A stretch of 26,950 nt of DNA from a virus, in IMG/VR virus record IMGVR_UViG_3300022707_001851, positions 1 to 26,950 of that record. The stretch is one strand, 5' to 3'. The notes beneath the pieces were generated by a model that was not told where the DNA came from, ran no database searches, and saw nothing but the letters and a program-made list of their open reading frames with translations. Shown here piece after piece: positions 7,292-22,414 of this stretch (its first letter is position 1; each line of letters starts with the position of its first letter). The position numbers and the translations under genes were made by a program.

Positions 7292-7320
7292 ATTCTATAA
7301 CAGTGTGTGCATACTATCAA
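7292..7320 (-). promoter_or_regulatory. Moron promoter A with 18-bp inverted-repeat operator
   Basis: Read leftward there is a -35 TTGATA (7315-7320), a 17-bp spacer and a -10 TAGAAT (7292-7297). The spacer and -35 hold an operator-like element, plus strand ACAGTGTGTGCATACTAT at 7300-7317, a slightly degenerate copy of ACAGT-N8-ACTGT. It drives the AcrIF11-like and AlpA-like genes. A protein bound here would cover the polymerase site, so repression is expected. Confidence 0.8.
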
Positions 7321-7467
7321 GCCAATATACAAAAGAAATCAAAGTATTTTGTATATCCGCTCTATCATTGACAATCTCACGCCTTGGATTCAAGGAGCCA
7401 GATTTTAAATCCGCTACATACATAAGCTATACATATAAGCTTAGTCGCTACACACATAAGGCCCATC

Positions 7468-7830
7468 ATGGCAGTCACAGAACAAACAAACCGGCGCATA
7501 AATCGCAACCGTGATTTTAAAGAGACGTTTACGTTGCTGAATGCAGACGAAACGCCACGCGATTTAACGGGTAGTGACCTTGTGCTTGAACTACGCAAGA
7601 CGGTCAACGCAGCAGACCCAGCGTTATTGAAGCTTACAAGCTCACCGGTGGCAGGCATCACAATCATAAACGCGGTAAAGGGGCAGATTGAAGTAGTAAT
7701 CACTGACGTAGAATCAGCAGCACTACCCGCAAGCGTTTTCCCATACGATTTATATCAAATCAAATCCGGTGGCGACAAAGTAACAGTGCTATCCGGTTCT
7801 TTCTCAGTACACGATTCAACAGCAATTTAG
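7468..7830 (+). CDS. Small beta-rich structural protein (hypothetical)
   Basis: This 120-residue protein has the pattern NRRINRNRDFKETFTLLNADETPRDLTG, then alternating beta strands and a closing GGDKVTVLSGSFSVHDST. Similar proteins with a rigid N-terminal immunoglobulin-like or jelly-roll domain are common in phage head-tail and baseplate gene blocks. The precise role is not known. The ATG follows an AT-rich stretch with a weak AAGG ribosome binding site. It is the first rightward gene after moron cassette A, followed closely by two more small genes in the same direction. Confidence 0.65.
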   Translation: MAVTEQTNRRINRNRDFKETFTLLNADETPRDLTGSDLVLELRKTVNAADPALLKLTSSPVAGITIINAVKGQIEVVITDVESAALPASVFPYDLYQIKSGGDKVTVLSGSFSVHDSTAI

Positions 7831-7838
7831 GATTAAAA

Positions 7839-8135
7839 ATGAGTTTACTTTTATTAAATAACGTTAATGAAGATACCGTTGGTGATTATGTCAATTCAAC
7901 CGGATTTCAGGGAATGATGAGAATCTCTGGAGACTTGGATGGCGGCACTATCACGATAGAAATTAAAGGCCGCGATAACTCAAATTTGCCGATACAAGAT
8001 TCCTCTAAAACTGCTATTAACACATTTACTAGCCCTGTTGCAATTTCCACTTTTTCTATACCTTCGGGCATAGCTGTCAGAGCAAGATTAACCGGGTCAG
8101 GAAGTCCCGTTAACGTATCTGTTTCATTTGATTAA
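7839..8135 (+). CDS. Small hypothetical virion-associated protein
   Basis: This 98-residue protein starts 8 nt after the previous stop, with AGGATTAAAA in front. Its composition is strongly beta (GGTITIEIKGRDNSN, SGIAVRARLTGSG), with many Gly, Ser and Thr and only one Met beyond the start region. This is typical of capsid or fibre accessory proteins. It has no Cys, no membrane segment and no known motif. It lies between the 120-residue and 150-residue beta proteins as part of one transcription unit ending at the terminator at 8638-8670. Confidence 0.6.
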   Translation: MSLLLLNNVNEDTVGDYVNSTGFQGMMRISGDLDGGTITIEIKGRDNSNLPIQDSSKTAINTFTSPVAISTFSIPSGIAVRARLTGSGSPVNVSVSFD

Positions 8136-8150
8136 TAAAGGATATTAGAT

Positions 8151-8603
8151 ATGTTTAGACCATCAGGCACATCTCCCGCTGGCCCGGTTACGAGAGAGAT
8201 AGCATTCATTTTAGAATATGACACAAACGCGGGATTTAATGAAAGAGTTGTAAGCGTAGGAATAAATGGGACTTTGCTTGCCAGTTTTTGGGTTCCTGCG
8301 GATTTCAGCACGTTCATAAGTATGACGGCATTAATTACGCCTTCAGGTTTTGGCGGCGCGGGACATGATATTGATTTAAATGTGAATTTTAGCGGTACAG
8401 GTGAGTTAGCTTTGGCGAATACGTCTAGTGATACTACAACTACTTACGACCTAGGTACTTCAAATTCTAACGAAGAGATTGTTTTGCCAAGCGTCTTATT
8501 TTCCGCACTGGCCGCTGGCGACCGTGGTGGAATTAAGTTTATACACAATACGCTCCCTGGCAACGTTTTATACAAACAATTGATATTAAAATACAGCACT
8601 TAG
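8151..8603 (+). CDS. Hypothetical beta-rich structural protein
   Basis: This 150-residue protein starts behind AAGGATATTAG. The N-terminus MFRPSGTSPAGPVTREI is Pro/Gly-rich, and the rest reads as a beta sandwich rich in Gly, Thr, Ser and aliphatic residues, with no charged helical parts. It resembles in general character phage decoration or fibre-head domains, but I cannot place it in a family. It is the last gene before a strong terminator. Confidence 0.6.
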   Translation: MFRPSGTSPAGPVTREIAFILEYDTNAGFNERVVSVGINGTLLASFWVPADFSTFISMTALITPSGFGGAGHDIDLNVNFSGTGELALANTSSDTTTTYDLGTSNSNEEIVLPSVLFSALAAGDRGGIKFIHNTLPGNVLYKQLILKYST

Positions 8604-8609
8604 TCTATG

Positions 8610-8628
8610 GTGTGTATACGCTACACAC
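8610..8628. repeat. 7-bp inverted repeat GTGTGTA / TACACAC
   Basis: The arms at 8610-8616 and 8622-8628 are separated by 5 nt. The left part (GTGTGTATAC) is the same as the core of the moron operators. It lies just after the gene at 8151-8603 and before the terminator. No promoter is visible around it. Confidence 0.4.
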
Positions 8629-8637
8629 AGACAACAC

Positions 8638-8670
8638 AACCCGCACAGGTTAATCCTCGCGGGTTTTTTT
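8638..8670 (+). terminator. Rho-independent terminator
   Basis: AACCCGC (8638-8644) pairs with GCGGGTT (8659-8665), with a small inner AGG/CCT stem in the loop, followed by a run of seven T (8664-8670). It separates the three small beta-rich genes from the protease-capsid unit. Confidence 0.85.
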
Positions 8671-8693
8671 ATGCCCAAAAATAAGAGAGAACT

Positions 8694-9533
8694 ATGAAAA
8701 GAGAACAAAAAACATTTGACTCAAACGGCCGAGAGGTCAAGTTTTTTCAGATAGACGGCAGCAAGGTAGAGTTTAAAAGCCACATAACTGAAAACGATAA
8801 TGGCATATTAATTGCCAAGTTCAGTGGTATTTTAAATGAGCTAAATGTTGTAGATAGAGGCGGTGACATTGTCGCATCCGGCGCAGCAATAAAAACCATT
8901 GCAGACCTGCAGCAAAGAAATAGATTTTTAAGGTTATTTTATCAGCATAGCCGCCACACATTGCCTCTAGGCGGGTTCCCAGCACTAGGCTTATCAGAAA
9001 GCTCTACTGCTATAGAGTTCAAAGATGCTGAGCTAAATTTGGGTATGGAGCAATTCCCTAACGCAATGGCTCACGCACAAAGTGTTTATTCATTGTTACT
9101 TGGCAAGCACTTATCAGATATGTCAATAGGGTTTTCTATTGTTGACTCAGAAATGATAGAGAGAGAAGGCCAAAAGGTGCGACTAATTAAAGAGCTAGTG
9201 CTTTGGGAGGGTTCTGTTGTTGATGAGCCAATGAACATTGGCTCTGTGATTACCGAAGTTAGCTCTAGCGATGATGACATCACAATGAGCAATAAATTTT
9301 CAGTTAAGACACTCAATGTTGAAGACGTTGAAAGCATTAACACAAAAAGAGATTTTGAGAAGGCACTGAGAGAGTCAGGCGCATTTTCAAAGGAAGCCGC
9401 TACCAAGATGGCTTCACACTTCAAAGAGAGTCAGAGCGAGTCTGGTGGAAAACTTGAAGAAGGAAAAAACAACGATATGAGCCAAGAGCAGTCGGCAAAA
9501 ATCGCACAATTAATAAATTCATTTAAGGAATAA
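8694..9533 (+). CDS. Prohead protease, HK97/U35 family, with C-terminal extension
   Basis: This 279-residue protein should mature the prohead by cutting scaffold and capsid N-termini. The herpes-protease-like core covers about residues 35-200. The likely catalytic His85 is in LFYQHSRHTLPLGG and Ser144 in LSDMSIGFSIV. The core ends in ELVLWEGSVVDEPMN. Residues 205-279 are helical, charged and Glu/Lys/Ser-rich and could be a fused scaffold-like segment. It sits 3 nt upstream of the major capsid gene, the standard order. The ribosome binding site is AGAGAGA. Confidence 0.9.
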   Translation: MKREQKTFDSNGREVKFFQIDGSKVEFKSHITENDNGILIAKFSGILNELNVVDRGGDIVASGAAIKTIADLQQRNRFLRLFYQHSRHTLPLGGFPALGLSESSTAIEFKDAELNLGMEQFPNAMAHAQSVYSLLLGKHLSDMSIGFSIVDSEMIEREGQKVRLIKELVLWEGSVVDEPMNIGSVITEVSSSDDDITMSNKFSVKTLNVEDVESINTKRDFEKALRESGAFSKEAATKMASHFKESQSESGGKLEEGKNNDMSQEQSAKIAQLINSFKE

Positions 9534-9536
9534 GTC

Positions 9537-10757
9537 ATGAGTGAAAACACAGAAGTACTCAGCAAGGAAAAAGCTGAGGTTTTAATTAAATCTCTAGAAA
9601 CCGCACGCGAAGAAATCGCAGCAGGGCGCACGCTATCCAAAACTAATCAAGAAAAAATGGAAAAAGATTTAGGTAGTGTTTTAGACACAACCAAATCTTT
9701 AACTAAATCTGTTGAAGAAGCGGACGTAAAAAATAAAGCTCTACAAGAACAGCTTGATATTGTAGAAAAACAAATGCGTCGACCTGTGTCCGGTGATGCA
9801 TTATCAAACCGCAAAGAAGTACTGATGCGCGTTGAGAGAGCACTTTTACACGGCGAAGGCGCTCGTGAAATGAAAGTGCTATCTACTGACAGCAATATTG
9901 ATGGTGGTTTTTTGGTCGCTCCTGCTGACTTTGTGCAAGAAATAGACAAGGACATTGTTGAGATGACCCCTGTCTTAACTGCTGCTGGCGGGGTAAGAAT
10001 TCGTAATACAGATCGAAACGAGGTTATAGTTAATCGTAGGATTACAAGACCAACAACCGCTGCAGTCAAGGAAAGAAAGAGTTTTCCCAATAGCCAATCA
10101 AGCTATGGTCGCGTTTCTATCAAAGTACACAAGCAAGCCGTGGAAACGATTATTACTCGTGAAGATTTAGATGATTCCGCGTTCAACATGGAAGCAGAAA
10201 TCATGTTTGATGTTAACGAGGATTTTGCGCAAAAAATCGGCGAACAAGTTATCAATGGTGGTGGTGATAGCGTCAACGAGGCAAACGGTATTTTGAAAAA
10301 CGCCGATATTCTCGCTAATGGTGTTACTAATAGTGGTGCGTCTGGTGGAATTGGAGACCCTGCTATTTTCATGGACTTTTTAGGAACTCTAAAAACCGGC
10401 TATCGTAGAAGTTTGTGGATGAATCGCCAGATTCTATATAAATTTTGGGCGCTTAAAGGCACAGACGGTCAATTCATTTTTAACTTCGGTAATTTTGCGG
10501 CATCACAAGGCCCTCAAATTCAGGGTATTCCTGTGATTGAAGCTCCTGACATGCCTCTTCTTGCAGCAGATGCATTGATTGTTGCTTACGGTGATTTTGG
10601 CAGAGGGTATTTGTTTGTTCAAAACACTCAGCTAATGATGATTCGTGATGAGATTACGCTTGCATCCGAAGATGAAATCAAGTTCACCTTCCGCCGTCGT
10701 TATGGTGGTGATGTTCTTCGTCCAGAAGCAATCAAACTGTATAAGGCTGCGGCTTAA
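9537..10757 (+). CDS. Major capsid protein, HK97 fold
   Basis: This 406-residue protein has the normal two-part build of HK97-type capsid precursors. A coiled-coil N-terminal delta domain covers about residues 1-100 and is probably removed by the protease. A capsid body follows, with typical strings such as DGGFLVAPADFVQEI, ETIITREDLDDSAFNMEAEI, QGIPVIEAPDMPLL and the P-loop/axial-domain end FTFRRRYGGDVLRPEAIKLY. It is preceded by the protease gene and followed by a hairpin at 10781-10798, which may set the ratio between capsid and downstream genes. Confidence 0.93.
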   Translation: MSENTEVLSKEKAEVLIKSLETAREEIAAGRTLSKTNQEKMEKDLGSVLDTTKSLTKSVEEADVKNKALQEQLDIVEKQMRRPVSGDALSNRKEVLMRVERALLHGEGAREMKVLSTDSNIDGGFLVAPADFVQEIDKDIVEMTPVLTAAGGVRIRNTDRNEVIVNRRITRPTTAAVKERKSFPNSQSSYGRVSIKVHKQAVETIITREDLDDSAFNMEAEIMFDVNEDFAQKIGEQVINGGGDSVNEANGILKNADILANGVTNSGASGGIGDPAIFMDFLGTLKTGYRRSLWMNRQILYKFWALKGTDGQFIFNFGNFAASQGPQIQGIPVIEAPDMPLLAADALIVAYGDFGRGYLFVQNTQLMMIRDEITLASEDEIKFTFRRRYGGDVLRPEAIKLYKAAA

Positions 10758-10780
10758 TAAGGCCGATGCTTAATTTATTT

Positions 10781-10798
10781 GGCGGGGTTCGCTCCGCC
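10781..10798 (+). terminator. UUCG-loop hairpin after the capsid gene
   Basis: GGCGGGG (10781-10787) pairs with CTCCGCC (10792-10798) around a TTCG tetraloop, with one G-U pair. The following T-tract is broken (TTATTTA), so it is a weak or partial terminator, or an mRNA 3'-end stabiliser. Confidence 0.6.
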
Positions 10799-10827
10799 TT
10801 ATTTAACATAATAAAAGGAATTTAAAA

Positions 10828-11238
10828 ATGGCTAAAATAGACCAAAAAACACTTGTAAAACCTGAAATTGCTTTGGTTACAACTAACATCGACGGTGATA
10901 CCGTTACTAATGGCGCAATCATTGATACCAAAGGTTTTCAATCGATTACTTACTTGCTTCAGTCTGGAGCAATCGCGGCTGGTGTAGCGACTCCTAGTTT
11001 TTTTGCTGGCAACGAATCAAACTTATCTGATGGCGCTACTGTAGCGGCAGAGGATTTGCTGGGCACAATTGCTGATGCGACCTTTGCGGACAGCGATGAT
11101 GATGTAGTGAAGTTTATTGGGTATCGCGGTGAGTTTAGATTTATCCGGTTGGATATCACCACCACAGGCTCAACCACATCTACTGATCTTAGTGCAATTG
11201 GATTGTTGGGTAGTCCCAATCTAGCGCCAACAGTATAA
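10828..11238 (+). CDS. Capsid decoration-like protein
   Basis: This 136-residue protein directly follows the capsid gene. Its layout is QSITYLLQSGAIAAGVATPSFFAGNESNLSDGATVAAEDLLGT, then VVKFIGYRGEFRFIRLDITTTGSTTSTDLSA and a Pro-rich end. This matches a widespread family of small beta-sandwich proteins found after HK97-type capsid genes and often assumed to coat the capsid surface. The ribosome binding site AAAAGGAA is strong, as expected for an abundant protein. Function is inferred from position and fold pattern only. Confidence 0.65.
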   Translation: MAKIDQKTLVKPEIALVTTNIDGDTVTNGAIIDTKGFQSITYLLQSGAIAAGVATPSFFAGNESNLSDGATVAAEDLLGTIADATFADSDDDVVKFIGYRGEFRFIRLDITTTGSTTSTDLSAIGLLGSPNLAPTV

Positions 11239-11244
11239 CTAACA

Positions 11245-11274
11245 GCCGCCCTTTTCTTTCGAGTTTGGGGCGGC
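11245..11274. other. Intergenic hairpin
   Basis: GCCGCCC (11245-11251) pairs with GGGCGGC (11268-11274) across a 16-nt loop. There is no T-run, so this is an RNA structure between decoration and adaptor genes, not a clear terminator. Confidence 0.45.
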
Positions 11275-11290
11275 AATTTGGAGAATAAAT

Positions 11291-11629
11291 ATGAAAAAGA
11301 TTAAATTCAAGAAACCTATAGCCATTGACATTGATGGCATTGCACGAGCATATGTTGTTGGAGATGTTCGTGATTATCTATCGGATGATGTTTGCGAGGG
11401 CTTAGTGAAATCAGGCAGTGCGGAGTATGTATTGACAGAAGCAGAAGCCAAAGCAGAGGCAGAGGCAGAGAAAGAGAAGCTTATCGCTGAACAAGAAAAG
11501 GTCAAAGCAGAGGCAGAGTTACTAGCTAAGCTAGAAGAAGAACAGGCCGAGTTAGAAAAAAAGAGACTCGATACAAAAAAAGAAAACAAACTACATAATC
11601 CAAAAAACAAAGAGAATAAAAGCGTTTAA
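11291..11629 (+). CDS. Small protein with charged coiled-coil tail
   Basis: This 112-residue protein has a compact N-terminal part (residues 1-47, IKFKKPIAIDIDGIARAYVVGDVRDYLSDDVCEGLVKSG), like the short domain at the head-tail gene boundary of many Mu-like and P2-like phages. A long stretch of Glu/Ala/Lys repeats (AEAKAEAEAEKEK) then predicts a continuous helix or coiled coil, ending in a basic Asn/Lys tail. The tail sequence is low-complexity, so similarity searches should use only the N-terminal part. The specific role is unknown. Confidence 0.6.
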   Translation: MKKIKFKKPIAIDIDGIARAYVVGDVRDYLSDDVCEGLVKSGSAEYVLTEAEAKAEAEAEKEKLIAEQEKVKAEAELLAKLEEEQAELEKKRLDTKKENKLHNPKNKENKSV

Positions 11630-11641
11630 GCGCTTAATAGT

Positions 11642-11699
11642 TTGCCGCAGTTTCGCCCATAGCGTGCACCTATTCGCGCTATCCCATCGACTGCGGCAA
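11642..11699. other. Nested intergenic hairpin (about 58 nt)
   Basis: An outer 10-bp perfect stem, TTGCCGCAGT (11642-11651) with ACTGCGGCAA (11690-11699), encloses an inner 6-bp stem, ATAGCG (11659-11664) with CGCTAT (11677-11682). It fills most of the gap before the connector gene. There is no T-run on the plus strand, so it may regulate mRNA stability or translation, or be a cruciform. Confidence 0.5.
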
Positions 11700-11718
11700 T
11701 TCAAAAAAGAGTTAATCT

Positions 11719-12339
11719 ATGTGGAAAAGAAGAATAAATCATCATGAGTATATCGTCACTAATCGACTGTGTGACTTACAGCTTAATCTTGATGCCGTCA
11801 AAAAGCATTTAGAGATTTCGTTTAGCGAGGTAGATGATGATGCCTACATAAACGAGGTGATTCGTGCTGCGGTAGAGTTTGCTGAGCGTCAACTGAATTT
11901 GTATTTATTGACAACAGATGTAACGCTTCACATTGATAACTTTTTGGATATTGTCATTCCAATTCGTCGACGACCTAATACCACCATAACGCAAATAGAT
12001 TATTTTAGAGAGGGTGTGCTAACGACCGTTGATGCAGCGGATTATTTTATAACAGTTTCATCCGTGGGTTATCCGACAGTACAGCCCGTCGAAGACAAGG
12101 ACTGGCCGGATGATGTTGATTGCCGACAACAAGCGGTACAGATAAATTTCCAGGCAGGGTATGGGCTAACGTTTGACGATGTGCCGTTTGATATTAGGCG
12201 TGCATTGTATGAGCACATTGCGGACATGTTCGAGAATCGCGGCGATTGCTCACAAGATACTTGTAAAAGCTGCTTACCGGCAATGACCGAAAGGGTTTAT
12301 GCGTCTCATAGAGTGCCGAGCATAGGGATAGGGTGTTGA
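11719..12339 (+). CDS. Head-tail connector protein, gp6-like
   Basis: This 206-residue protein has the helix-loop build of HK97 gp6-type adaptors that ring the bottom of the portal. An N-terminal helical part (LNLDAVKKHLEISFSEVDDDAYINEVIRAAVEFAERQLN) is followed by a beta insert with IPIRRRPNTTITQIDYF, and a C-terminal helix pair (DDVPFDIRRALYEHIADMFENRGD). A Cys cluster near the end (CSQDTCKSC) is unusual for the family and might bind metal. The gene is followed after one base by the next start. Confidence 0.75.
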   Translation: MWKRRINHHEYIVTNRLCDLQLNLDAVKKHLEISFSEVDDDAYINEVIRAAVEFAERQLNLYLLTTDVTLHIDNFLDIVIPIRRRPNTTITQIDYFREGVLTTVDAADYFITVSSVGYPTVQPVEDKDWPDDVDCRQQAVQINFQAGYGLTFDDVPFDIRRALYEHIADMFENRGDCSQDTCKSCLPAMTERVYASHRVPSIGIGC

Positions 12340-12340
12340 T

Positions 12341-12742
12341 ATGGCAAAATGTGTCACAATTCAGCGCAAGAAAAAGAGAGCATGTATTGGCGCACGCAAT
12401 AGATGGATTACGCTTCAAACGCGCTCAATTCAGCCGCCTTGCAGTGGTGAGGTGGATTATACCGAAAAATTCACAAAGAAAATTAGAGTTAAAGCCTTGG
12501 TCAAGACAACAGAGGGCGTGCGCGGTGGAGAAACTATCTTTGACGACACCGGCACAGAAAGAGTGGTAACGCACGAATTTGATATTAGATTTATCACTGG
12601 CGTTACATTTGAGAATTGGGTGTTGATGGATGGTATCAAGTATAACATTTTAGGCACTCAAAATGTCGATGAGGCAAACAACTCTATCATCATAAAGGCC
12701 ACAAAACGCGGGACAGAATCAGCGGCTGCAAATTTCGCCTAG
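12341..12742 (+). CDS. Head-tail joining/closure protein (SPP1 gp16-like)
   Basis: This 133-residue protein starts 1 nt after the connector stop. The pattern is a basic start, then ITLQTRSIQPPCSGEVDYTEKF, and RVVTHEFDIRFITGVTFENWVLMDGIKYNILGTQNVDEANN. It is that of the small beta-barrel head completion proteins that close the portal channel, for which the end motif G-x-x-Y-x-I-x-x-x-x-N is typical. Position after the connector supports this. Confidence 0.75.
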   Translation: MAKCVTIQRKKKRACIGARNRWITLQTRSIQPPCSGEVDYTEKFTKKIRVKALVKTTEGVRGGETIFDDTGTERVVTHEFDIRFITGVTFENWVLMDGIKYNILGTQNVDEANNSIIIKATKRGTESAAANFA

Positions 12743-12835
12743 CATTTTCATTCTGTTAGTCTGTTGTTGTTGGCCATGCTAACTATATCACTGTTTTTAT
12801 TCATCATTTCATTTTCCTGTTTTTCCGTATAAATA

Positions 12836-13210
12836 TTATTTACCGATAAAGTCTTCTTTTAGAAGTTCTGATTTAATCAGATTACCGTATTCATTAAAAG
12901 TTTGAGAAAAAACACGATAAGGCAGACCTTTTACTAATGGGTTTTGTTTGACCATTTTTGCGCTGAGTGTTTGTAATTCTTGAGTTGTGTTTGCTGTAAC
13001 GGATAATTTTAAATCTTGATTGTCTGTTACTACTTGTAAAATATATTTTGCACCCATGTCGCTATCTGTTTCGCTCATAGTCTGACTCGGTATGCTGTGA
13101 CCGTTCTCTGCTCTTAATCTTAAGCCAAAAGGTTCGGGCTTTACACTTGATGAAAACTTAGCGCATGACTCGACTAGAATAGTGTCAGTGTTTGTTGAGT
13201 ATGTATTCAT
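12836..13210 (-). CDS. Leftward moron protein of cassette B, unknown function
   Basis: This 124-residue protein is alone in the second leftward cassette, inserted between head-completion and neck genes, and is driven by promoter B with ribosome binding site GGAGAA. Residues 9-23 (DTILVESCAKFSSSV) resemble residues 181-195 of the rightward tail protein at 13839 (GTILVESCPRISSSV). The DNA matches at about 35 of 45 positions in the same frame, so part of the gene may have come from that tail gene. The rest is soluble and mixed alpha/beta, without Cys-rich or membrane parts. Because it shares its promoter with the AcrIF11-like operon, it is a candidate anti-defence protein; I do not recognise a known Acr. 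Confidence 0.75.
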   Translation of the reverse strand: MNTYSTNTDTILVESCAKFSSSVKPEPFGLRLRAENGHSIPSQTMSETDSDMGAKYILQVVTDNQDLKLSVTANTTQELQTLSAKMVKQNPLVKGLPYRVFSQTFNEYGNLIKSELLKEDFIGK

Positions 13211-13214
13211 GTTT

Positions 13215-13231
13215 TTCTCCGTTTCGTTGAT
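13215..13231 (-). promoter_or_regulatory. Conserved leader and ribosome binding site of cassette B
   Basis: Read leftward it is ATCAACGAAACGGAGAA, the same 17 nt as in cassettes A and C, 4 nt before the ATG. Confidence 0.75.
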
Positions 13232-13239
13232 GTTGACTC

Positions 13240-13268
13240 ATATTACAACAGTATACACACACTGTCAA
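13240..13268 (-). promoter_or_regulatory. Moron promoter B with 18-bp inverted-repeat operator
   Basis: Read leftward there is TTGACA (13263-13268), a 17-bp spacer and TAATAT (13240-13245). The operator-like sequence read leftward is ACAGTGTGTGTATACTGT (13248-13265). It is identical to the operator of promoter C but in the opposite orientation relative to transcription. Confidence 0.85.
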
Positions 13269-13328
13269 CATATGAATCAAAAGAAAGTAAAGTATTTCGC
13301 GCATCCGCTGTTTTCTTGAGGTTCTGCT

Positions 13329-13835: not shown

Positions 13836-13838
13836 ACG

Positions 13839-14945
13839 ATGAAAGCTCAAGACGTTGTTAATCAGTTATCCGGTGCGCTCCCACTTTTCACGTCCCAGTT
13901 CACTACAACGCTAAGTGTCTCGAGTATTGTTGTTTCGTCGAATTTGGCTACTGTCACCACCATAGACCCACACAAGTTTGAAACGGATTATGTGGTAGTG
14001 ATAAGAGATGCAATCACACCCAACGCAATCACAAGTTTAACCCGTGTTGGCAGCATCGCTACAGCCGTTACCCTCAACAAGCACAACATAACAAAGCAGA
14101 TTAATGGCAAGCAATTTGTCACTATTAGCGGCGCGGCAGAGTCGGAATACAACGGCAGCCAAACGCTTTTAAAGATTATCGATGGTAATACAATTACATT
14201 TTTAGTTGATGGCACGCCAGCAAGCCCAGACACGGGGTCACCAATATTAGAAGAGTTCTTTTTATTATCGGATGATGTCGCAGGATTCACGCACATAAAC
14301 GGCGTTCATAAAATCACTGTCACAAGCCCAACGACTTTTACATATCCAACAAACGCAGTGCCGGACGTTATAGCCATTGGCACTATTCTAGTTGAGTCAT
14401 GTCCCAGAATTTCATCAAGCGTTGATTTAGAAAGGGTCATTGATAGCTATACAGCACAAGAAAATAAAGAGCTTTGGGGTTTTGTGATACTAGAAGACCG
14501 TACCGCGAATAAAGACAGAAAAATAAACATTGACGCAAGCAATAGCCGCTCTGGTGGTTCAGATTCACGTCAGATTGTCACATCACCATTTTCGTTCTAT
14601 GTGTTTGTGCCAACGAGGGATGAGCTGTCAGGCAGATTAGCGCGTGATGACATGGAGGACTTAACATCTCCATTGTTCCGATCATTGCTAGGCGTTAGAT
14701 TCGAGACCGGATTATCTGGTAATAACTGGTCAGAAGTAACATTCCTAAGCCACGGAATTCAAGCATACAACACCGCCTTCTATGTCCACAGGTTTTCATT
14801 TGAAGCAATCATAGATATCACCTTTGAAGACACCGCAAAAGCCAACGAAGTCGGCACAGTATTTCGCTGTATCGACATGGAAACGGGCGCACCACAAAAT
14901 GAAACCACATCACCGATTGAATCAACAATTAACCTGGATGATTAA
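13839..14945 (+). CDS. Tail terminator/completion-like protein with inserted beta domains
   Basis: This 368-residue protein starts 3 nt after the neck gene. Residues 1-25 and about 185-360 form the probable core. They include SFYVFVPTRDELSGRLARDDMEDLTSPLFRSLLG, as in Mu-like tail-end proteins that cap the tube and join the head. Residues about 28-180 look like two or more inserted immunoglobulin-like repeats (ATVTTIDPHKF, and ISGAAESEYNG followed by ITFLVDGTPASPDTGS). A similar insert is visible in the baseplate J-like protein at 25822. The segment GTILVESCPRISSSV is shared with the moron protein at 12836. Confidence 0.65.
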   Translation: MKAQDVVNQLSGALPLFTSQFTTTLSVSSIVVSSNLATVTTIDPHKFETDYVVVIRDAITPNAITSLTRVGSIATAVTLNKHNITKQINGKQFVTISGAAESEYNGSQTLLKIIDGNTITFLVDGTPASPDTGSPILEEFFLLSDDVAGFTHINGVHKITVTSPTTFTYPTNAVPDVIAIGTILVESCPRISSSVDLERVIDSYTAQENKELWGFVILEDRTANKDRKINIDASNSRSGGSDSRQIVTSPFSFYVFVPTRDELSGRLARDDMEDLTSPLFRSLLGVRFETGLSGNNWSEVTFLSHGIQAYNTAFYVHRFSFEAIIDITFEDTAKANEVGTVFRCIDMETGAPQNETTSPIESTINLDD

Positions 14946-14946
14946 C

Positions 14947-15222
14947 ATGACAACAAGACGGCTAGAAATACTGAAAGACAACGGATTATACAAAGCTAGA
15001 ACGATTATAAAAATAAAGGTGGACCAAAACGGACAGCCTCAAGACTCATTTTTATATCGTCGCGTTCGAGATATGAAAGCAGACCAAAACTGCCAGTGGC
15101 TTGATGAATGGTCAATGAAGAAAGGCGAAGCAACGACCATACAGCCATCAAAATCAGTCGAAAAAAGAAAAGCAATACAACAAGACAAATCTAAGAGCAA
15201 TCAACCAGAGGATAAAAGCTAA
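14947..15222 (+). CDS. Small basic protein before the tail sheath
   Basis: This 91-residue protein starts 1 nt after the previous stop and overlaps the sheath start as TAATG. Its first half is compact (RRLEILKDNGLYKARTIIKIKVDQNGQ, then FLYRRVRDMKADQNCQWLDEW). The last 30 residues are Lys/Ser/Gln-rich and disordered. Small genes between tail completion and sheath are usual in Mu-like phages. I do not recognise its role. The upstream in-frame ATG at 14824 would overlap the previous gene heavily and is less likely. Confidence 0.65.
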   Translation: MTTRRLEILKDNGLYKARTIIKIKVDQNGQPQDSFLYRRVRDMKADQNCQWLDEWSMKKGEATTIQPSKSVEKRKAIQQDKSKSNQPEDKS

Positions 15223-16787: not shown

Positions 16788-16796
16788 GGAATCATC

Positions 16797-17195
16797 ATGA
16801 CAATTAAAATTGCAAATCCCCAAGTTCTTATCGACGATGAGCCTTTTTTCATAAAGTCAGGTACTGGAGAGTACACGCCTGGCACTCCTGAATGGACAAC
16901 CATGAACGAGCTTTCTGGTGTTAAAAAACGTGCCATTCATGCAGCAGACTTTTCAGCAGCTTACGGTGTTGTTAAGTTTGAGTTTGAAAACACCAAAGAA
17001 AACATCGACAAATATATCGAGCTTGCCACCACATTTAATGAGCACACAGTCGCATTTGTTGGTATTGAAGATGATGGCACTGAGGAATTTGATGTGTCCA
17101 TAGAAAATGCAATATTAGCTAATCGGGCAACTATCAACCTGTCGACAGATGGAAGCCTTGAATTAATCTTCAACGGCGACGACACAATCGATTAA
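16797..17195 (+). CDS. Tail tube protein
   Basis: This 132-residue protein directly follows the sheath gene, with ribosome binding site AAGGA. It reads as a small beta barrel with one helix (VLIDDEPFFIKSGTGEYTPG ... KFEFENTKENIDKYIELATTF ... EEFDVSIENAILANRATINLSTDGSLELIFNG), the build of contractile-tail inner tube proteins. The position between sheath and tail chaperone is standard. A hairpin terminator or attenuator follows. Confidence 0.82.
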   Translation: MTIKIANPQVLIDDEPFFIKSGTGEYTPGTPEWTTMNELSGVKKRAIHAADFSAAYGVVKFEFENTKENIDKYIELATTFNEHTVAFVGIEDDGTEEFDVSIENAILANRATINLSTDGSLELIFNGDDTID

Positions 17196-17203
17196 CCCAT
17201 ACC

Positions 17204-17245
17204 GCCCGTGGCATAAAACTTTAACGCAAACCCACGGGCATTTTT
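17204..17245 (+). terminator. Hairpin with T-run after the tail tube gene
   Basis: GCCCGTGG (17204-17211) pairs with CCACGGGC (17232-17239) across a 20-nt loop and is followed by ATTTTT. It may reduce expression of chaperone and tape measure relative to sheath and tube. Confidence 0.7.
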
Positions 17246-17264
17246 AAAATAATAGGAGAATATC

Positions 17265-17759
17265 ATGACAGGAATTAGAACATCTTTTGAATACGAACTA
17301 GCAGAGCCGATTAGATACACAGAAAAGTCCGAGGGTAAAGCAGCGTTTGTAGAGGGGCAAATGCTGGTGCTTTATGCGCCGTCAGTTAAACAGATGAGGC
17401 ACGTTCAAAAATTAAAAGCCTATTTTTATGCAGCCACTGATAAGACGGCTCAATCCGAAGCTGAAAATAATAAAAATAGTCTCGCATCAAAAGAGAAAGA
17501 AGAGAAAGAAGATGGCGTGAAAATCAACGCTACATTTTTACTGGTCGCACTTGAAAAGGGAACAAAGGATCTTAATCCGGTTTACGATTGTTTTATGGAG
17601 ATGATATGTAGTTCAATTTGTAAAATTGAAGATAAAACCAACATGACTAAACCTATCCTTGATCTTCTATCAGCGCCTGATATTGAAAACATGCTAGGGA
17701 TTTATTTAGACAATTTTTTGTTACAGTCCTTCAAGAAGATGATACAAGAAAACTCTTAG
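17265..17759 (+). CDS. Tail assembly chaperone, zero-frame product
   Basis: This 164-residue acidic protein lies between tube and tape measure, the place of lambda G-like tail chaperones that coat the tape measure during tail assembly. It has a beta N-terminus (SFEYELAEPIRYTEKSEGKAAFVEGQMLVLYAPS) and a helical rest with a low-complexity Glu/Lys loop at about residues 70-85. The ribosome binding site is AGGAGA. Near its end is the slippery heptamer T TTT TTG (17714-17720). The -1 frame beyond it stays open to the tape measure start, so a longer frameshift product is expected. Confidence 0.82.
   Translation: MTGIRTSFEYELAEPIRYTEKSEGKAAFVEGQMLVLYAPSVKQMRHVQKLKAYFYAATDKTAQSEAENNKNSLASKEKEEKEDGVKINATFLLVALEKGTKDLNPVYDCFMEMICSSICKIEDKTNMTKPILDLLSAPDIENMLGIYLDNFLLQSFKKMIQENS
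17714..17720 (+). promoter_or_regulatory. Programmed -1 frameshift site, T TTT TTG
   Basis: In the zero frame the heptamer reads as the last base of AAT, then TTT and TTG, fitting the X XXY YYZ rule. A one-base backward slip leads into the frame that continues to 17893 without a stop. Confidence 0.75.
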
Positions 17760-17893
17760 AAAGTGTTTTCTCTGTAGTTCGATTTCTTGAAGGAGGCGCG
17801 AGCGTTGATTATTTGTTGAATATCCCAGTGACCGAACTTTTTTCATATATAGAAATATGCTCTGAGATGAGCAAAAAAGAGAATAAAAACTAA
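17720..17893 (+). CDS. Tail chaperone frameshift extension (GT-like C-terminal part)
   Basis: This frame has no usable start codon of its own and adds 57 residues after a -1 slip at 17714-17720, giving a fusion of about 209 residues. The extension is helical (VTVLQEDDTRKLLESVFSVV, then LEGGASVDYLLNIPVTELFSYIEICSEMSKK), and its TAA overlaps the tape measure ATG as TAATG. In lambda the corresponding T part binds the tape measure and recruits tube subunits. The open frame, slippery site and position agree well with that model. Confidence 0.75.
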   Translation, partial: VTVLQEDDTRKLLESVFSVVRFLEGGASVDYLLNIPVTELFSYIEICSEMSKKENKN

Positions 17894-19632
17894 TGGCACT
17901 ACCAATTTCCTTTAATATTAATCTAGATGATCATTATAGCCAGGTCGCAGCTAAAGTTACATTTGCCCAAAAAAAGTTTAACGACACAATTAAAAAAGGT
18001 GATGATAAGTTAAAAAAATACAATGATACTTTGAAGAAAACAGGCAGAGGCGCGGAAATTCTTGCCAGAAAAAATAGAGTTCTAAAGAAAAGATTTACAG
18101 ACCTTAAAGGTGAAGCAATCGGCTTAGGCGCGACACTTCTAGCCGTGGCTTTCCCTATCAAACAGGCAATTAGGTTTGAATCTGCTATGTCCGATGTTAG
18201 AAAGGTAGTTGAGTTTAAGACTATTGATAATTTTAGAAAGTTTGGCGATCAAATACTTGTGATGTCTCAACAACTCCCAGTCTCCGCAGACGGATTGGCT
18301 GCAATGGCTGCGGCTGGCGGTAAATTAGGGATAAAAGCCGCAGAGCTACCAGGATTTATTAAGACAGTTACAAAAGCGACTGTTGCATGGGACATGTCGT
18401 CAGAAATGGCGGCAGACTCATTAGCTAATTTATCAAATAGAATGGGTATCCCTATTGATAAGATTGAAGAGTTGGCTGATGCAATAAATTTTATGACAGA
18501 TTCAACATCAGCAAAAGTGCCAGCGTTATTACAAATATTGGGAAGATTATCAGGTGAATTCACAACATTAGGTGTATCGTCTGAAAAAGCGGTGGGCTTT
18601 GCCACTTTTGCCGCTTTAGTAGAAGTCACGCCACAATTAGCGGCGTCCGGCTTTAGACAGATGCTTCAAAGAATGCGCGATATTCCTAAGATGACTGAAA
18701 AACTTGTAAAGAATCCAGAAAAAGCCATAACCGGATTACTCTCTAGGTTATCTGACCTTGGAACATTAGAAAGAATAAAACTTATTGATGAAATTTTTGG
18801 GCCAGAAGCAGGTAAATTTGTTTTAAAAGCAACAGCGAAATTTGAATTATTAGGAAAAACGCTAGAAAAAGTTGCAGATAAACAAAATTTTCTAGGGTCT
18901 TTGCAGCGAGAATTTAACATAAAATCAGAAACAACAAGCAAAAAACTGCAACTAATGAAGAATAGATTTGCTGCTGTAGGGATAAAACTTGGCGAAGCTT
19001 TTTTACCTATTTTGAAAGTTACTGCGGCTGTACTTGGTACTATCGCGATTGCGTTGTTCGCGGTTCTTGTGCAGTTAGAGCCAATAATGCCATTGATTGG
19101 CTCATTAGTGGGTATATTTGTTGTGTTAAAAACGGCTGCGCTGTTAACGAGATTGTGGGGCATAGCAATGGGATTTTTAAAAGTAAACGCTCTTGCCGCC
19201 TTGTCTCCGACAATTAAAGCTATCGGCTTCTTGAGCGCAGCGATTATTTTTGCGGTAGATAGTATTATAAAATTTAAAGAGCAATTTACCTTTAGTGGAT
19301 TAGCAAAGAAATTTCTTGCTGGTGAGCTTAGCATTGGCGATGCTTTTAGGAGCCAAGAGAGTTTTGCTGCTAAAAATAGGGAGGCGACTAGAAAGATATT
19401 TGAAAATGTTAAGAGTAAAAATATAATCCCTGGAGCTGTGAACCCAATCACTGGTGTTGCGAACCCAGTCCCTGGGCCTGTTCCTGGGCCACAAAAAATA
19501 AGCGGCTCAGTCGATACAAATATTAACGTTTCAGCAACAGCAGGAACAAGGGTTAATTCAGTGGAAACGACTACAGCAGGTGCGGCCAGAACCGCTGCGA
19601 TCAATATGAACACAGCGGGGGCATTTGCTTAA
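17893..19632 (+). CDS. Tail tape measure protein
   Basis: This 579-residue protein sets tail length and probably travels with the DNA on ejection. The N-terminal part is helical and Lys-rich. Residues about 95-265 match the TP901-type tape measure core (SAMSDVRKVVEF, MSQQLPVSADGLAAMAAAGGKLGI, LANLSNRMGIPIDKIEELADAINFMTDST). A hydrophobic membrane-like region lies at about 370-425, and the end is Ala/Thr/Pro-rich. By the usual 0.15 nm per residue rule the tail would be about 85 nm, which is short. The gene ends 16 nt before the end of the convergent leftward accessory island. Confidence 0.9.
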   Translation: MALPISFNINLDDHYSQVAAKVTFAQKKFNDTIKKGDDKLKKYNDTLKKTGRGAEILARKNRVLKKRFTDLKGEAIGLGATLLAVAFPIKQAIRFESAMSDVRKVVEFKTIDNFRKFGDQILVMSQQLPVSADGLAAMAAAGGKLGIKAAELPGFIKTVTKATVAWDMSSEMAADSLANLSNRMGIPIDKIEELADAINFMTDSTSAKVPALLQILGRLSGEFTTLGVSSEKAVGFATFAALVEVTPQLAASGFRQMLQRMRDIPKMTEKLVKNPEKAITGLLSRLSDLGTLERIKLIDEIFGPEAGKFVLKATAKFELLGKTLEKVADKQNFLGSLQREFNIKSETTSKKLQLMKNRFAAVGIKLGEAFLPILKVTAAVLGTIAIALFAVLVQLEPIMPLIGSLVGIFVVLKTAALLTRLWGIAMGFLKVNALAALSPTIKAIGFLSAAIIFAVDSIIKFKEQFTFSGLAKKFLAGELSIGDAFRSQESFAAKNREATRKIFENVKSKNIIPGAVNPITGVANPVPGPVPGPQKISGSVDTNINVSATAGTRVNSVETTTAGAARTAAINMNTAGAFA

Positions 19633-19648
19633 TGAAGTCTTAATTTTC

Positions 19649-19999
19649 TCAATTGATTTCTAGTTTGAATCCTCTGAAATTTATTTTAGCAGTATCAACT
19701 GTTTTTTCTTCGTTGAGAAAAATACAAAAATAGTTGACTTTTTCCCATGCTCCATGTCGGTTCTGCACTTTTAAATTATCGCCAATATAGCCGGTCATAT
19801 GTTCGTTTTGTTCAAGAACATCAAACTTAGAATCAAACAAGCCATCAGTCCATTCATATTCAAATGGTCTAAGATCTTCTATTGCAGTTTTACATTTATT
19901 AGTTGGCGAATTTTTGTAGATTAAATTAGCGGCTACAATAATTGCAATACAAATAAAAACTGCTAATAACACAATAATTTTTAATTTAAAATTTTTCAT
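19649..19999 (-). CDS. Leftward accessory protein with N-terminal membrane anchor
   Basis: This 116-residue protein starts MKNFKLKIIVLLAVFICIAII, a basic start followed by one hydrophobic helix at about residues 8-27, so it is probably anchored in the inner membrane with the rest in the periplasm. The soluble part has two Cys (CKTAIEDL and NYFCIFL) that could form a disulfide. It is the last gene of the leftward island. Small membrane-anchored periplasmic phage proteins can block superinfection at the DNA entry step; that is a possibility only. Confidence 0.7.
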   Translation of the reverse strand: MKNFKLKIIVLLAVFICIAIIVAANLIYKNSPTNKCKTAIEDLRPFEYEWTDGLFDSKFDVLEQNEHMTGYIGDNLKVQNRHGAWEKVNYFCIFLNEEKTVDTAKINFRGFKLEIN

Positions 20000-20053
20000 T
20001 GTTTTTCCTTGTAGTTTAGTTAAAGTTATTCGAGCGTTTCGGTTGGTTTCGGT

Positions 20054-20350
20054 TCAATCGAGTATTTTGTGGTAAATCATTTCGTTATTTTTGGTGTTAA
20101 TGATTCTTAATAGATATCTTTCGTATTTGCAGCTCCATGATGAAATCGCCAATCGTACAAGAGATTCAAATGATTCTGTCACTATGCGACTGATTGTTTC
20201 TTGGTCATGAATCAATTGGTCGGTTTGCAAGTAAGTGTCGTCGTCATTGAAATACAACGTAGGCGTACCAAGCATTTTAATTTTCGGCGGGTTGTGACTG
20301 TGAGTTTCAATTTCAATTTGGTCTAGTTTTATTATGTATTGGTCTTCCAT
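20054..20350 (-). CDS. Leftward accessory protein, unknown
   Basis: This 98-residue soluble acidic protein has ribosome binding site AGGA. It has a beta-rich first half (YIIKLDQIEIETHSHNPP, LGTPTLYFNDDDTYLQ) and a helical second half (ETISRIVTESFESLVRLAISS), ending in a strand pair. No known motif is visible. It is part of the closely spaced leftward island downstream of promoter C. Confidence 0.7.
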   Translation of the reverse strand: MEDQYIIKLDQIEIETHSHNPPKIKMLGTPTLYFNDDDTYLQTDQLIHDQETISRIVTESFESLVRLAISSWSCKYERYLLRIINTKNNEMIYHKILD

Positions 20351-20375
20351 GATTGTTGTCCTGGTTGATTGCGGG

Positions 20376-20696
20376 TTATTTTTCTATCCAAAAATGATAG
20401 GTATAGCTTCCGCAAGGAGGGCGGTAGTCTGTTAATTCTTTTATAACAGCATAGGGCGCGTCAGAATCACGCTCTATCATATCGTTGTCATATAAATACT
20501 TGAGCAATATTTTTTTGTAGTCTGGGTATTGCCGCCAATCAATTTTTATTGCGCCTATGGGCGAGTTAGCCGCCTTAACCGAAAGCTTTAAGTTTTTATA
20601 GATGTATATTTGTCCGTGCTTATATCTGGCGCTAGACGGCTTACAATCAATTTCCTTTTCATCAATTATGATTTTCGGGTTTTCTATTTTTGGCAT
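20376..20696 (-). CDS. Leftward accessory protein, unknown
   Basis: This 106-residue protein starts at the ATG at 20696, preceded by AAGGATAG. A start 12 codons further upstream is possible but overlaps the previous small gene and lacks a good ribosome binding site. The sequence is basic and mixed (IIIDEKEIDCKPSSARYKHGQIYIYKNLKLSVKAA), with a helical stretch around YPDYKKILLKYLYDNDMIE and a beta end. The family is unknown. The size and context fit anti-defence or host-modulating proteins. Confidence 0.68.
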   Translation of the reverse strand: MPKIENPKIIIDEKEIDCKPSSARYKHGQIYIYKNLKLSVKAANSPIGAIKIDWRQYPDYKKILLKYLYDNDMIERDSDAPYAVIKELTDYRPPCGSYTYHFWIEK

Positions 20697-20715
20697 AGTT
20701 CTATCCTTGGTTGAT

Positions 20716-20853
20716 TTACATGACTCTAACAATAAGAAAGATTGCTAGATTGATAAATGTACCTATAACGACTCCGATTATGAGTCCGGTAAAGAAATCC
20801 GTCTCGGTTACTAGCTTACAATGTGCGCATTTACTGTCCATTTTTATTTCCAT
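20716..20853 (-). CDS. 45-residue CxxC membrane micro-protein
   Basis: This leftward open frame sits in the gap between two accessory genes. The product has a short N-terminal part with one CAHC pair (CxxC), and then a single hydrophobic helix over about residues 20-43 (FFTGLIIGVVIGTFINLAIF), ending in RVM. A second ATG at 20841 with GGA upstream would give 41 residues. The gap would otherwise be a 174-nt hole in a compact operon, which supports a real gene. The rightward frame over the same bases (20711-20959) is treated as a shadow. Confidence 0.55.
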   Translation of the reverse strand: MEIKMDSKCAHCKLVTETDFFTGLIIGVVIGTFINLAIFLIVRVM

Positions 20854-20870
20854 TATCCCAGTTGATGAAG

Positions 20871-21071
20871 TTAAATTCTTGAAAAGTGAGTTATATATGC
20901 ACCAGAAAAGTTTATGTCGTGCTTATGCGTGGATTCAGCAAGAGCCACTGCGCCTTTAAATGCATGATTAGCGTTTGGGTAAAAAGACTTTAATGACACT
21001 ATGCCAGAGACACGGCATTTATCGCTATCTATGCCATACTCATATCTATAAAAATACTCTCGCTTTATCAT
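20871..21071 (-). CDS. Leftward accessory protein, unknown
   Basis: This 66-residue protein starts in an ATGA overlap with the gene upstream of it in the operon. It begins with an aromatic and basic stretch (MIKREYFYRYEYGID), followed by KCRVSGIVSLKSFYPNANHAFKGAVALAES. It is soluble and probably one small alpha/beta unit. No family is recognised; the coupling supports expression. Confidence 0.68.
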   Translation of the reverse strand: MIKREYFYRYEYGIDSDKCRVSGIVSLKSFYPNANHAFKGAVALAESTHKHDINFSGAYITHFSRI

Positions 21072-21454
21072 GATGGTTGCTCCTGTTGTGCGTCTAAAAG
21101 CTCTTGGCAGTCTTGAGCGGTGAATGTTTTGCGTAACAATAAAGGCAGCACTAAATCAGTACCGAAGTGTAGCGCTTCACTGACGCAGCCAGAGACATGA
21201 CACCGCAATCTGTGATTGCTGCAATAGATTGAGTCCACATTATTTGGGTGTAGTTTAAAGTTTTGCGCTTTGCTAAAATCGACAGAAAAATTACCCTCGA
21301 TATCACCCTCAATTAAATTGTATTCACATTCAACCGATTCACCGATAATTTTTTGAGCTTTAGCTTTGATAAATGTAAGCTTCATATCACTACCCAGCTT
21401 TTCTTTCAGCGCTTGCAGCTTATCGTTAAACTTTTGTATGGTTTCGGGTTTCAT
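21068..21454 (-). CDS. Leftward accessory protein with four Cys, unknown
   Basis: This 128-residue protein is coupled on both sides by ATGA overlaps. The N-terminal helix (ETIQKFNDKLQALKEKLG) is followed by a beta region (LTFIKAKAQKIIGESVECEYNLIEGDIEGNF). A Cys-rich part (YCSNHRLRCHVSGCV, with a further Cys at about residue 43) could bind metal. The end is helical (KTFTAQDCQELLDAQQ). The function is unknown. Confidence 0.7.
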   Translation of the reverse strand: MKPETIQKFNDKLQALKEKLGSDMKLTFIKAKAQKIIGESVECEYNLIEGDIEGNFSVDFSKAQNFKLHPNNVDSIYCSNHRLRCHVSGCVSEALHFGTDLVLPLLLRKTFTAQDCQELLDAQQEQPS

Positions 21455-21771
21455 TGGTTAGCCTTGGTCAAGTCGATAGTTTTTGAGTAAACCTCGTTGG
21501 ATTCAGTGCATTCCCATTGTTCATCGAGATATGTATTTTCCGCGATTGTTATTGTTAGTTGTTGGTCATCTGGAAATTCTGCTTTCAGTCTGGGTAAGAT
21601 AAAGTCTTTTATTATGTCTAGTGCATCTTGTTTGGTATAGAAATACTCTGGGTCTTCTCGGCCCATCGTATCAATGAATTTATTTTCGATTTTACACCAT
21701 TGATAAAATTCGTATTCATTACATCCACTAAAATCAATCTCGTTGCTTATTTCTATTGAGTATTTTTTCAT
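21451..21771 (-). CDS. Leftward accessory protein, acidic, unknown
   Basis: This 106-residue acidic protein has ribosome binding site AGGAAAG. It starts with a beta strand (KKYSIEISNEIDFSG), then an aromatic helical region (YEFYQWCKIENKFIDTMG), a helix around TKQDALDIIKDFILPRLK, and closing strands. Small acidic proteins of this kind are frequent among DNA mimics and inhibitors of host defence, but composition alone is weak evidence. It follows the 85-residue gene behind promoter C. Confidence 0.7.
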   Translation of the reverse strand: MKKYSIEISNEIDFSGCNEYEFYQWCKIENKFIDTMGREDPEYFYTKQDALDIIKDFILPRLKAEFPDDQQLTITIAENTYLDEQWECTESNEVYSKTIDLTKANQ

Positions 21772-21805
21772 GATGCTTTCCTGGTTGGGTCGTTGACTGA
21801 TGCGT

Positions 21806-22063
21806 TTATTTTATGCTCTCAACAAATGCGCGGGCTTGAGAATAAAGCGGGTGATTTTTAAAAAGGCAAACTTTCCTTTTCCCGTTGAGACCAAGAAATG
21901 ATAGTGCCTTGATGTTATTTTTGAATATTTTTTGTAAATTATTGCCAGAATTCTTTGATAGTATAGTTACACATTTTCGCGTATCAATTCCGTTATCTAG
22001 CACATAAGAAACATTTACTTTTTCTTTGCCGTTTGTCACGTTGAACTTGTTAAATTTAATCAT
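21806..22063 (-). CDS. First gene of cassette C, small basic accessory protein
   Basis: This 85-residue protein starts at the ATG at 22063, placed by the shared leader with GGAGAA. The longer in-frame start further upstream lies inside the leader and is rejected. The sequence is a beta-rich half (FNKFNVTNGKEKVNVSYVLD, RKCVTILSK), a helix, and a basic end with KNHPLYSQARAFVESIK. The family name is unknown to me. Its direct control by the same promoter/operator as the AcrIF11-like gene makes it the best anti-defence candidate of the island. Confidence 0.72.
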   Translation of the reverse strand: MIKFNKFNVTNGKEKVNVSYVLDNGIDTRKCVTILSKNSGNNLQKIFKNNIKALSFLGLNGKRKVCLFKNHPLYSQARAFVESIK

Positions 22064-22069
22064 TTTGCA

Positions 22070-22086
22070 TTCTCCGTTTCGTTGAT
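22070..22086 (-). promoter_or_regulatory. Conserved leader and ribosome binding site of cassette C
   Basis: Read leftward it is ATCAACGAAACGGAGAA, identical to cassettes A and B. The shared leader shows that promoter and translation signal travel together. Confidence 0.75.
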
Positions 22087-22094
22087 GTTGACCC

Positions 22095-22123
22095 ATATTA
22101 CAACAGTGTGTGTATACTGTCAA
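22095..22123 (-). promoter_or_regulatory. Moron promoter C with 18-bp inverted-repeat operator
   Basis: Read leftward there is TTGACA (22118-22123), a 17-bp spacer and TAATAT (22095-22100). The plus-strand operator sequence is ACAGTGTGTGTATACTGT (22103-22120), the reverse complement of which lies at the same place in promoter B. It should drive the eight genes from 22063 down to 19649. Confidence 0.85.
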
Positions 22124-22131
22124 GAGAAATA

Positions 22132-22145
22132 TGAAATAAATCTAA
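22132..22145. repeat. Left copy of 14-bp direct repeat bounding cassette D
   Basis: TGAAATAAATCTAA occurs here and again at 22426-22439, 294 bp away, in each case just upstream of a moron promoter. It suggests duplication or recombination at the cassette edge. Confidence 0.6.
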
Positions 22146-22345
22146 TCTTTTTCATCTTTTTTATCTTTTTTTCTTTCGCCTTCATACACATAGTAGTTGG
22201 GAAATCTGCTTGTATTTAAGCCTCTGATAAACTGGCTAACAACTTTATTGTCGTCGACGTGATGATAGTGCCCATGACGAATAACTTGCATTTCTCTTAG
22301 TCGGGTAGCGCGGTCCTGGCCCCGTTGTTTGACTGTTTTAGCCAT
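22142..22345 (-). CDS. Small basic protein of cassette D
   Basis: This 67-residue very basic protein starts at ATG 22345, 8-10 nt after AAGGA. An upstream in-frame ATG lies inside promoter D and is rejected. It starts with AKTVKQRGQDRATRLREMQVIRHGHYHHVDDNKV and ends with a charged Lys/Asp/Glu tail. The His-rich HGHYHH segment could bind metal or nucleic acid. It is the only gene between promoters D and C. Its function is unknown; a nucleic acid-binding role is plausible from charge alone. Confidence 0.65.
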   Translation of the reverse strand: MAKTVKQRGQDRATRLREMQVIRHGHYHHVDDNKVVSQFIRGLNTSRFPNYYVYEGERKKDKKDEKD

Positions 22346-22385
22346 AATTTTATTTTCCTTAATTTGAATAAATGATATTGCAGCT

Positions 22386-22414
22386 ATTGTATATAAGTAT
22401 GTACACACTGTCAA
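22386..22414 (-). promoter_or_regulatory. Moron promoter D with operator variant
   Basis: Read leftward there is TTGACA (22409-22414), a 17-bp spacer and TACAAT (22386-22391). The operator read leftward is ACAGTGTGTACATACTTA (22394-22411), the most diverged of the four. Its leader does not carry the 17-nt block shared by A, B and C. Confidence 0.75.

Follow-up and report, generated by a model that had tools for sequence, protein, structure and literature searches.

A palindromic promoter element shared by dispersed leftward cassettes of a phage fragment as a candidate Aca-type operator

Pairs of anti-CRISPR (acr) and anti-CRISPR-associated (aca) genes have so far mostly been described as single operons, each with its own operator. 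In every Aca family that they tested, Shehreen et al. found the core promoter to contain an inverted repeat and to be repressed by the cognate Aca (PMC9410906). A wider arrangement is the Reg regulon of plasmid p576, which was recognised through upstream regions resembling, at 50 to 68%, the one before a known anti-restriction gene (PMC8708921). Here we describe IMG/VR record IMGVR_UViG_3300022707_001851, whose entire 26,950 bases (hereafter, the window) are probably a phage genome fragment, and in which four leftward promoters, A to D, carry complete or degenerate copies of an 18-bp palindromic element, ACAGT-N8-ACTGT. We judge it probable, though well short of secure, that this element is an Aca-type operator common to the four cassettes, which would form one early, self-limiting regulon of probable anti-defence genes. 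The promoters are as follows.

7292-7320, minus strand: promoter A, TTGATA-17-TAGAAT, with an operator-like element ATAGT-ATGCACAC-ACTGT at 7300-7317 (one mismatch)
13240-13268, minus strand: promoter B, TTGACA-17-TAATAT, with an exact element at 13248-13265
22095-22123, minus strand: promoter C, TTGACA-17-TAATAT, with an exact element at 22103-22120 in the opposite orientation to that of B
22386-22414, minus strand: promoter D, TTGACA-17-TACAAT, with a partial element ACAGT-GTGTACAT-ACTTA at 22394-22411; the shared leader (see below) is absent

All four fit TTGAYA-17-TAnnAT, and they account for four of the seven sites that score at least 10/12 between 6000 and 23000. A preliminary description of this DNA had placed sigma-70-like leftward promoters with 17-bp spacing at exactly these positions and was correct in doing so, as it was in calling the 18-mers of B and C exact reverse complements. 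Its further claim that all four promoters carry ACAGT-N8-ACTGT holds in part: the element is exact at B and C but has one mismatch at A and has lost most of its right arm at D. Because the A and D sites are degenerate, the proposal of one operator at four promoters is uneven in strength, the sequences making a strong case for B and C, a fair one for A, and a weak one for D.

On its own, the 18-bp element makes a weak case. A motif search with one mismatch allowed returned 3 matches against 0.76 expected, a number reached in 6 of 100 shuffles, and did not recover the element at D; random occurrence, the objection that the preliminary description had itself raised, is thus exceeded only marginally. 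The palindromes of B and C, each taken alone, are also unremarkable against chance. The element is absent from the six related records searched, and in IMG/VR the 18-mer occurs once elsewhere, at a place with no promoter of the A-D kind. Also in IMG/VR, a strict promoter pattern had no match, a looser promoter-leader pattern matched 12 loci (none with 17-base spacing), and a 17-nt leader gave 15 matches, none with an A-D-type promoter. The LexA/SOS box of gamma-proteobacteria (CTGT-N8-ACAG) was considered and rejected, with 7 occurrences in the window against 8.0 expected when one mismatch is allowed and none at the four promoters.

Since the element alone is near chance, the case rests on a shared leader, an extended repeat, the ranking of promoter pairs, and the agreement of the palindrome cores. 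The leader, which the preliminary description had overlooked, is a 16-nt sequence containing GGAG that is identical in three cassettes.

7267-7282, minus strand: leader of A, TCAACGAAACGGAGAA, with Shine-Dalgarno GGAG
13215-13230, minus strand: leader of B, identical 16-mer TCAACGAAACGGAGAA
22070-22085, minus strand: leader of C, identical 16-mer TCAACGAAACGGAGAA

No RNA structure was found in this leader. A 106-nt block is repeated across the cassettes at 63-71% identity, and among 3,019 promoter pairs, each compared within a related locus or within the window, the best three are A/C, B/C, and A/B. Between B and C, the -35, the -10, the right arm, and the leader are identical, and 25 of 34 downstream positions are equal. 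Their 8-bp cores agree at only 2 of 8 positions as read but at all 8 once one of them is turned round, and with B and D inverted all four cores converge in near agreement on AT(A/G)(C/T)ACAC. Agreement of this kind has a P of 0.00055 against random alternating cores, with the best orientation allowed. Because the cores agree only with inversion, unlike those of a plainly copied promoter, they fit a dimeric protein site that is usable either way round, and the agreement indirectly suggests such a site rather than plain copying. The earlier argument for a palindromic site that works in either orientation therefore stands. A site-specific recombinase that flips the core was also considered and set aside, as the arms are merely 5 bp and the window contains no recombinase gene.

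Cassette A gives the proposed regulon its likely function. It comprises two genes.

6833-7261, minus strand: predicted AcrIF11-family anti-CRISPR ADP-ribosyltransferase gene, 142 residues (NCBIfam, fold, and residues)
6335-6808, minus strand: gene for a tandem AlpA-type helix-turn-helix (HTH) protein, 157 residues, second gene of the cassette (Pfam Phage_AlpA, E 6e-8)

The product of 6833-7261 falls in the AcrIF11 family NF052490.1 (124.1 bits against a cut-off of 50, over residues 6-129 of 142), as do 9 of its 9 homologs, and is assigned to PHROG 11282. An AlphaFold model built on eight homologs (predicted local distance difference test score, pLDDT, 83) matches 8dwq with Z 10.9 over 142 residues and 6kyf with Z 10.4 over 127, the next Z being 6.0; Foldseek also matches the model to both structures, which are AcrIF11Pae2 and AcrIF11Pae1, respectively (PMC12421852). 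AcrIF11Pae1 has an acidic catalytic loop, D115/E116, of which D115 has been demonstrated to matter for activity (PMC12421852). These residues align with D121/E122 of the window protein, which are invariant in the nine homologs. The first gene of cassette A is thus predicted to encode an AcrIF11-family anti-CRISPR ADP-ribosyltransferase, whose expected activity would be to ADP-ribosylate Csy1 and so to inhibit type I-F CRISPR. With the HTH gene 24 bases downstream and a strong sigma-70 promoter in front, the best reading of the layout is an acr-aca type operon. Its promoter anatomy agrees in the sigma-70 promoter; the repeat at A has one left-arm mismatch, and the exact copies lie at B and C.

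Given that cassette A appears to be an AcrIF11 operon, its HTH product becomes a candidate Aca-type repressor, which we put forward as a proposal. The two halves of this protein are related to each other (none of 2,000 shuffles was equally good), and Pfam and NCBIfam returned AlpA or nothing, the Aca1-12 profiles not being among those compared. Searches found neither a close viral relative nor an informative solved one, and the structure model (pLDDT 35) is too poor for use.

Other AcrIF11 operons offer a comparison for promoter A. Genome scans yielded no relative with an alignment of two sequences and three relatives with one of nine. We compared the regions upstream of AcrIF11 homologs in Vibrio phage VaK, in viral contigs L103-L110, and in genome contigs L135-L137. 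L106, L107, L109, and L110 were left out of the promoter count, a choice made after the sequences had been seen; they lack a promoter of the A-D kind, and their homologs seem to lie inside longer operons. Among the eight other AcrIF11-family promoters with a recognisable -35 and -10, six contain, in the core promoter, an inverted repeat that is perfect over arms of 5 bp or more, and only 4 of 2,000 shuffle sets have as many. The six repeats all differ in sequence:

VaK: GTCCC-N5-GGGAC
L103: TTGTACCTCATTTGAGGTACAA
L108: AATATAGTATATACTATATT
L135 (Pseudoalteromonas): ATAAAGTAAAATGCTTTAT
L136: CTCCTAAATAGGAG
L137 (Acinetobacter): TGGTCGCAAATGCGACCA

Genes that follow the AcrIF11 homologs are often small and HTH-like by eye, although few pass a family cut-off. 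The window stands apart from VaK, L103, and L108 in that its repeat recurs at other cassettes. In L114, L115, and L117 (Alteromonas and Providencia plasmids), relatives of the AcrIF11-like gene come immediately behind genes for a RelE/ParE toxin and an HTH protein, an arrangement of toxin-antitoxin plus acr-like gene. In L109 and L110 (6004-6987 in each), a 327-residue protein joins the AcrIF11-like domain to a further domain of about 190 residues.

Since cassette A looks like an anti-CRISPR operon, the genes of the other cassettes become candidate anti-defence genes as well.

12836-13210, minus strand: cassette B, a single gene, 124 residues, candidate anti-defence
19649-22063, minus strand: cassette C, about seven leftward genes (open reading frames): 21806-22063, 21451-21771, 21068-21454, 20871-21071, 20376-20696, 20054-20350, and 19649-19999
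22142-22345, minus strand: cassette D gene, 67 residues

Searches with the cassette B product found no family, phage relative, or solved relative; family searches gave no clear family for the cassette C products; and the products of B, C, and D together have essentially zero database relatives. Profiles of defence systems gave nothing credible against the cassette products. Lack of database relatives is common for anti-defence proteins. The missing relatives are nevertheless not evidence for an anti-defence function of these products.

The cassette B product has a possible source within the window itself. When the two sequences are compared directly, the protein (DTILVESCAKFSSSV...) is similar to a stretch of the rightward structural protein encoded at 13839-14945 (GTILVESCPRISSSV...), matching at 32% across 92 residues with E 2e-5, and at the DNA level a 48-nt inverted match of 79% joins 13143-13190 to 14375-14422. 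A tail gene of this same phage may be the origin of the cassette B gene, or what it mimics.

If these observations are put together, the following scheme would account for them. The inverted repeat over the -35 and spacer would be a repressor operator, with the same promoter-operator unit (and the same leader) standing before B and C and a weaker form before D. When the phage DNA enters the cell, the repressor would be absent and the promoters would fire immediately. An Aca-like protein, for which the tandem AlpA product of 6335-6808 is the simplest candidate, would then accumulate, bind ACAGT-N8-ACTGT, exclude RNA polymerase, and switch the cassettes off, which would also end leftward transcription opposing the late rightward structural genes. 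What we observe directly are the promoters, the sequence they have in common, the inverted cores, the AcrIF11 assignment with its neighbouring HTH gene, and promoters of like kind in other AcrIF11 operons; binding, repression, timing, the identity of the binding protein, and the roles of the B, C, and D genes are all things that we infer. The fullest version, in which the tandem AlpA protein founds a new Aca family, its operator joins the four cassettes into one anti-defence regulon, the B, C, and D genes (roughly nine) mostly encode new counter-defence proteins, and the asymmetric core stays functional in either direction, we offer only tentatively. The preliminary description had proposed one repressor controlling unrelated cargo; a single regulator at dispersed cassettes is the part best supported, while the AcrIF11 assignment of cassette A makes it probable that the cargo shares an anti-defence role.

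Several observations weigh against a shared Aca-type operator. The palindrome at the acr promoter A is imperfect and D holds only half of it, neither is significant when taken singly, and at the AlpA gene's own promoter the site is a poorer match than at B and C. An AlpA-type Aca is not named in the Aca literature searched, and AlpA proteins are more familiar as activators or excisionases. The B, C, and D products lack a known anti-defence relative. Finally, the repeats of VaK, L103, and L108 are each single in the sequence examined, so that sharing among cassettes is unseen in the relatives.

These points invite other explanations, of which the one we rate highest, while still thinking it unlikely, is that the element is an operator of the main CI-like immunity repressor, with the cassettes silent in the prophage and on in lytic growth. 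Dispersed master-repressor sites are known from SPbeta (SPBRE/MrpR; PMC10516654) and from cluster A mycobacteriophages of the L5 type (PMC6550527), and the immunity region lies outside this record. Yet in the 49 kb of VaK examined the repeat of the AcrIF11 promoter occurs nowhere else, the CI/Cro intergenic region included, the L103 repeat is likewise single, and AcrIF11 operons elsewhere carry an HTH gene of their own. A dedicated regulator might also be lacking altogether, a strong constitutive promoter-leader unit having been copied by recombination with the palindrome as an incidental passenger. That the upstream regions are also alike, that A, B, and C have one and the same leader, that two of the four element copies are imperfect, and that lone palindromes with 5-bp arms turn up by chance not infrequently would all fit such copying. 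We nonetheless regard it as rather doubtful, for B and C differ just in the core, which matches when inverted, as plain copying would not produce, and AcrIF11-family promoters elsewhere usually carry an inverted repeat. Least of all do we favour a host transcription factor, such as a LexA-like or stress regulator, through which the cassettes would answer to host state: spaced palindromes commonly overlie promoters and the arms resemble an inside-out LexA box (CTGT-N8-ACAG vs ACAGT-N8-ACTGT), but true LexA-type boxes are at chance level in the window and absent from the four promoters, homologous genes of other phages have unrelated operators, and we consider this explanation improbable.

The wider setting of the cassettes is that of a contractile-tailed phage. 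The window carries genes for terminase, portal, and head and for the sheath, tape measure, and baseplate of a contractile tail, while the early and immunity region falls beyond its ends. A search among phage records found no near-identical record or DNA relative, but the TerL protein is 50-54% identical to those of Paracoccus phage Pkon1, a Manatee Spring myovirus, and Aeromonas phage 56. In the last of these, leftward cassettes follow the head protein gp51 and the large tail gene gp69, places that match those in the window and so look like recurrent sites of accessory-gene insertion. Aeromonas phage 56 (L096) has two further features of its own. At 35378-35842, the insertion site corresponding to that of cassettes C/D, the leftward pair gp71-gp70 has AATGCGC-N9-GCGCATT in its promoter spacer and ends in an HTH gene, making it another acr-aca-like unit. 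A leader, TCAACAACGCAGGA, is common to gp55 (24860-25123), an accessory gene between structural genes, and gp15 (4664-4882), in a leftward early-type region, so this phage likewise reuses a promoter-leader unit between regions. Separately, the window holds at 4922-5464 an HslV-like peptidase gene (PHROG 1040, E 3e-22) between the portal and head morphogenesis genes.

If the proposed regulon is real, an Aca-type operator would become a search tool for unrecognised bacteriophage anti-defence genes, an approach already taken with archaeal viruses (PMC11065993), and a short early burst followed by shut-off could explain why strong opposing promoters of accessory genes can sit inside a structural region. 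The window offers about nine orphan genes and one candidate repressor for direct testing.

Compared with known systems, the locus resembles acr-aca operons (PMC9410906; for AcrIF11, PMC12421852) in having an AcrIF11-family gene followed by an HTH gene, a strong sigma-70 promoter, and a repeat-like element in the core promoter. It differs in that the published cases are one operon each, whereas here the element recurs at three further cassettes, the HTH protein is a tandem AlpA, a type unnamed among the Acas in the literature searched, and the repeat at the acr promoter is imperfect. One site repeated genome-wide for one phage repressor is also the pattern of SPBRE/MrpR of SPbeta and of cluster A stoperators (PMC10516654, PMC6550527), but those serve a lysogeny repressor, and stoperators are asymmetric and mostly outside promoters. 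The SAS/ESAS of cluster K mycobacteriophages (PMC3203893) likewise combine a conserved ribosome-binding leader with an inverted repeat before many unrelated genes; unlike the element described here, they differ in sequence, sit in the non-structural half of the genome in 11-19 copies, and have 17-bp repeats that are not tied to a -35/-10 core.

The nearest systems appear to be the Aca8-linked sequence of archaeal viruses and the Reg regulon of p576. The former (PMC11065993) shares strong promoters, a virus-specific regulatory sequence common to several mostly uncharacterised genes, and a genome that also encodes an acr and a putative Aca; its promoters, however, are archaeal and its genes mostly clustered single ones, whereas here the cassettes of a tailed bacterial phage are scattered among structural genes over distances of up to 15 kb. 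In p576 (PMC8708921), an autoregulated repressor has operators at several strong promoters of anti-restriction and uncharacterised genes, much as we propose here, although p576 is a conjugative Bacillus plasmid, its repressor is unrelated, and its operators flank the promoters.

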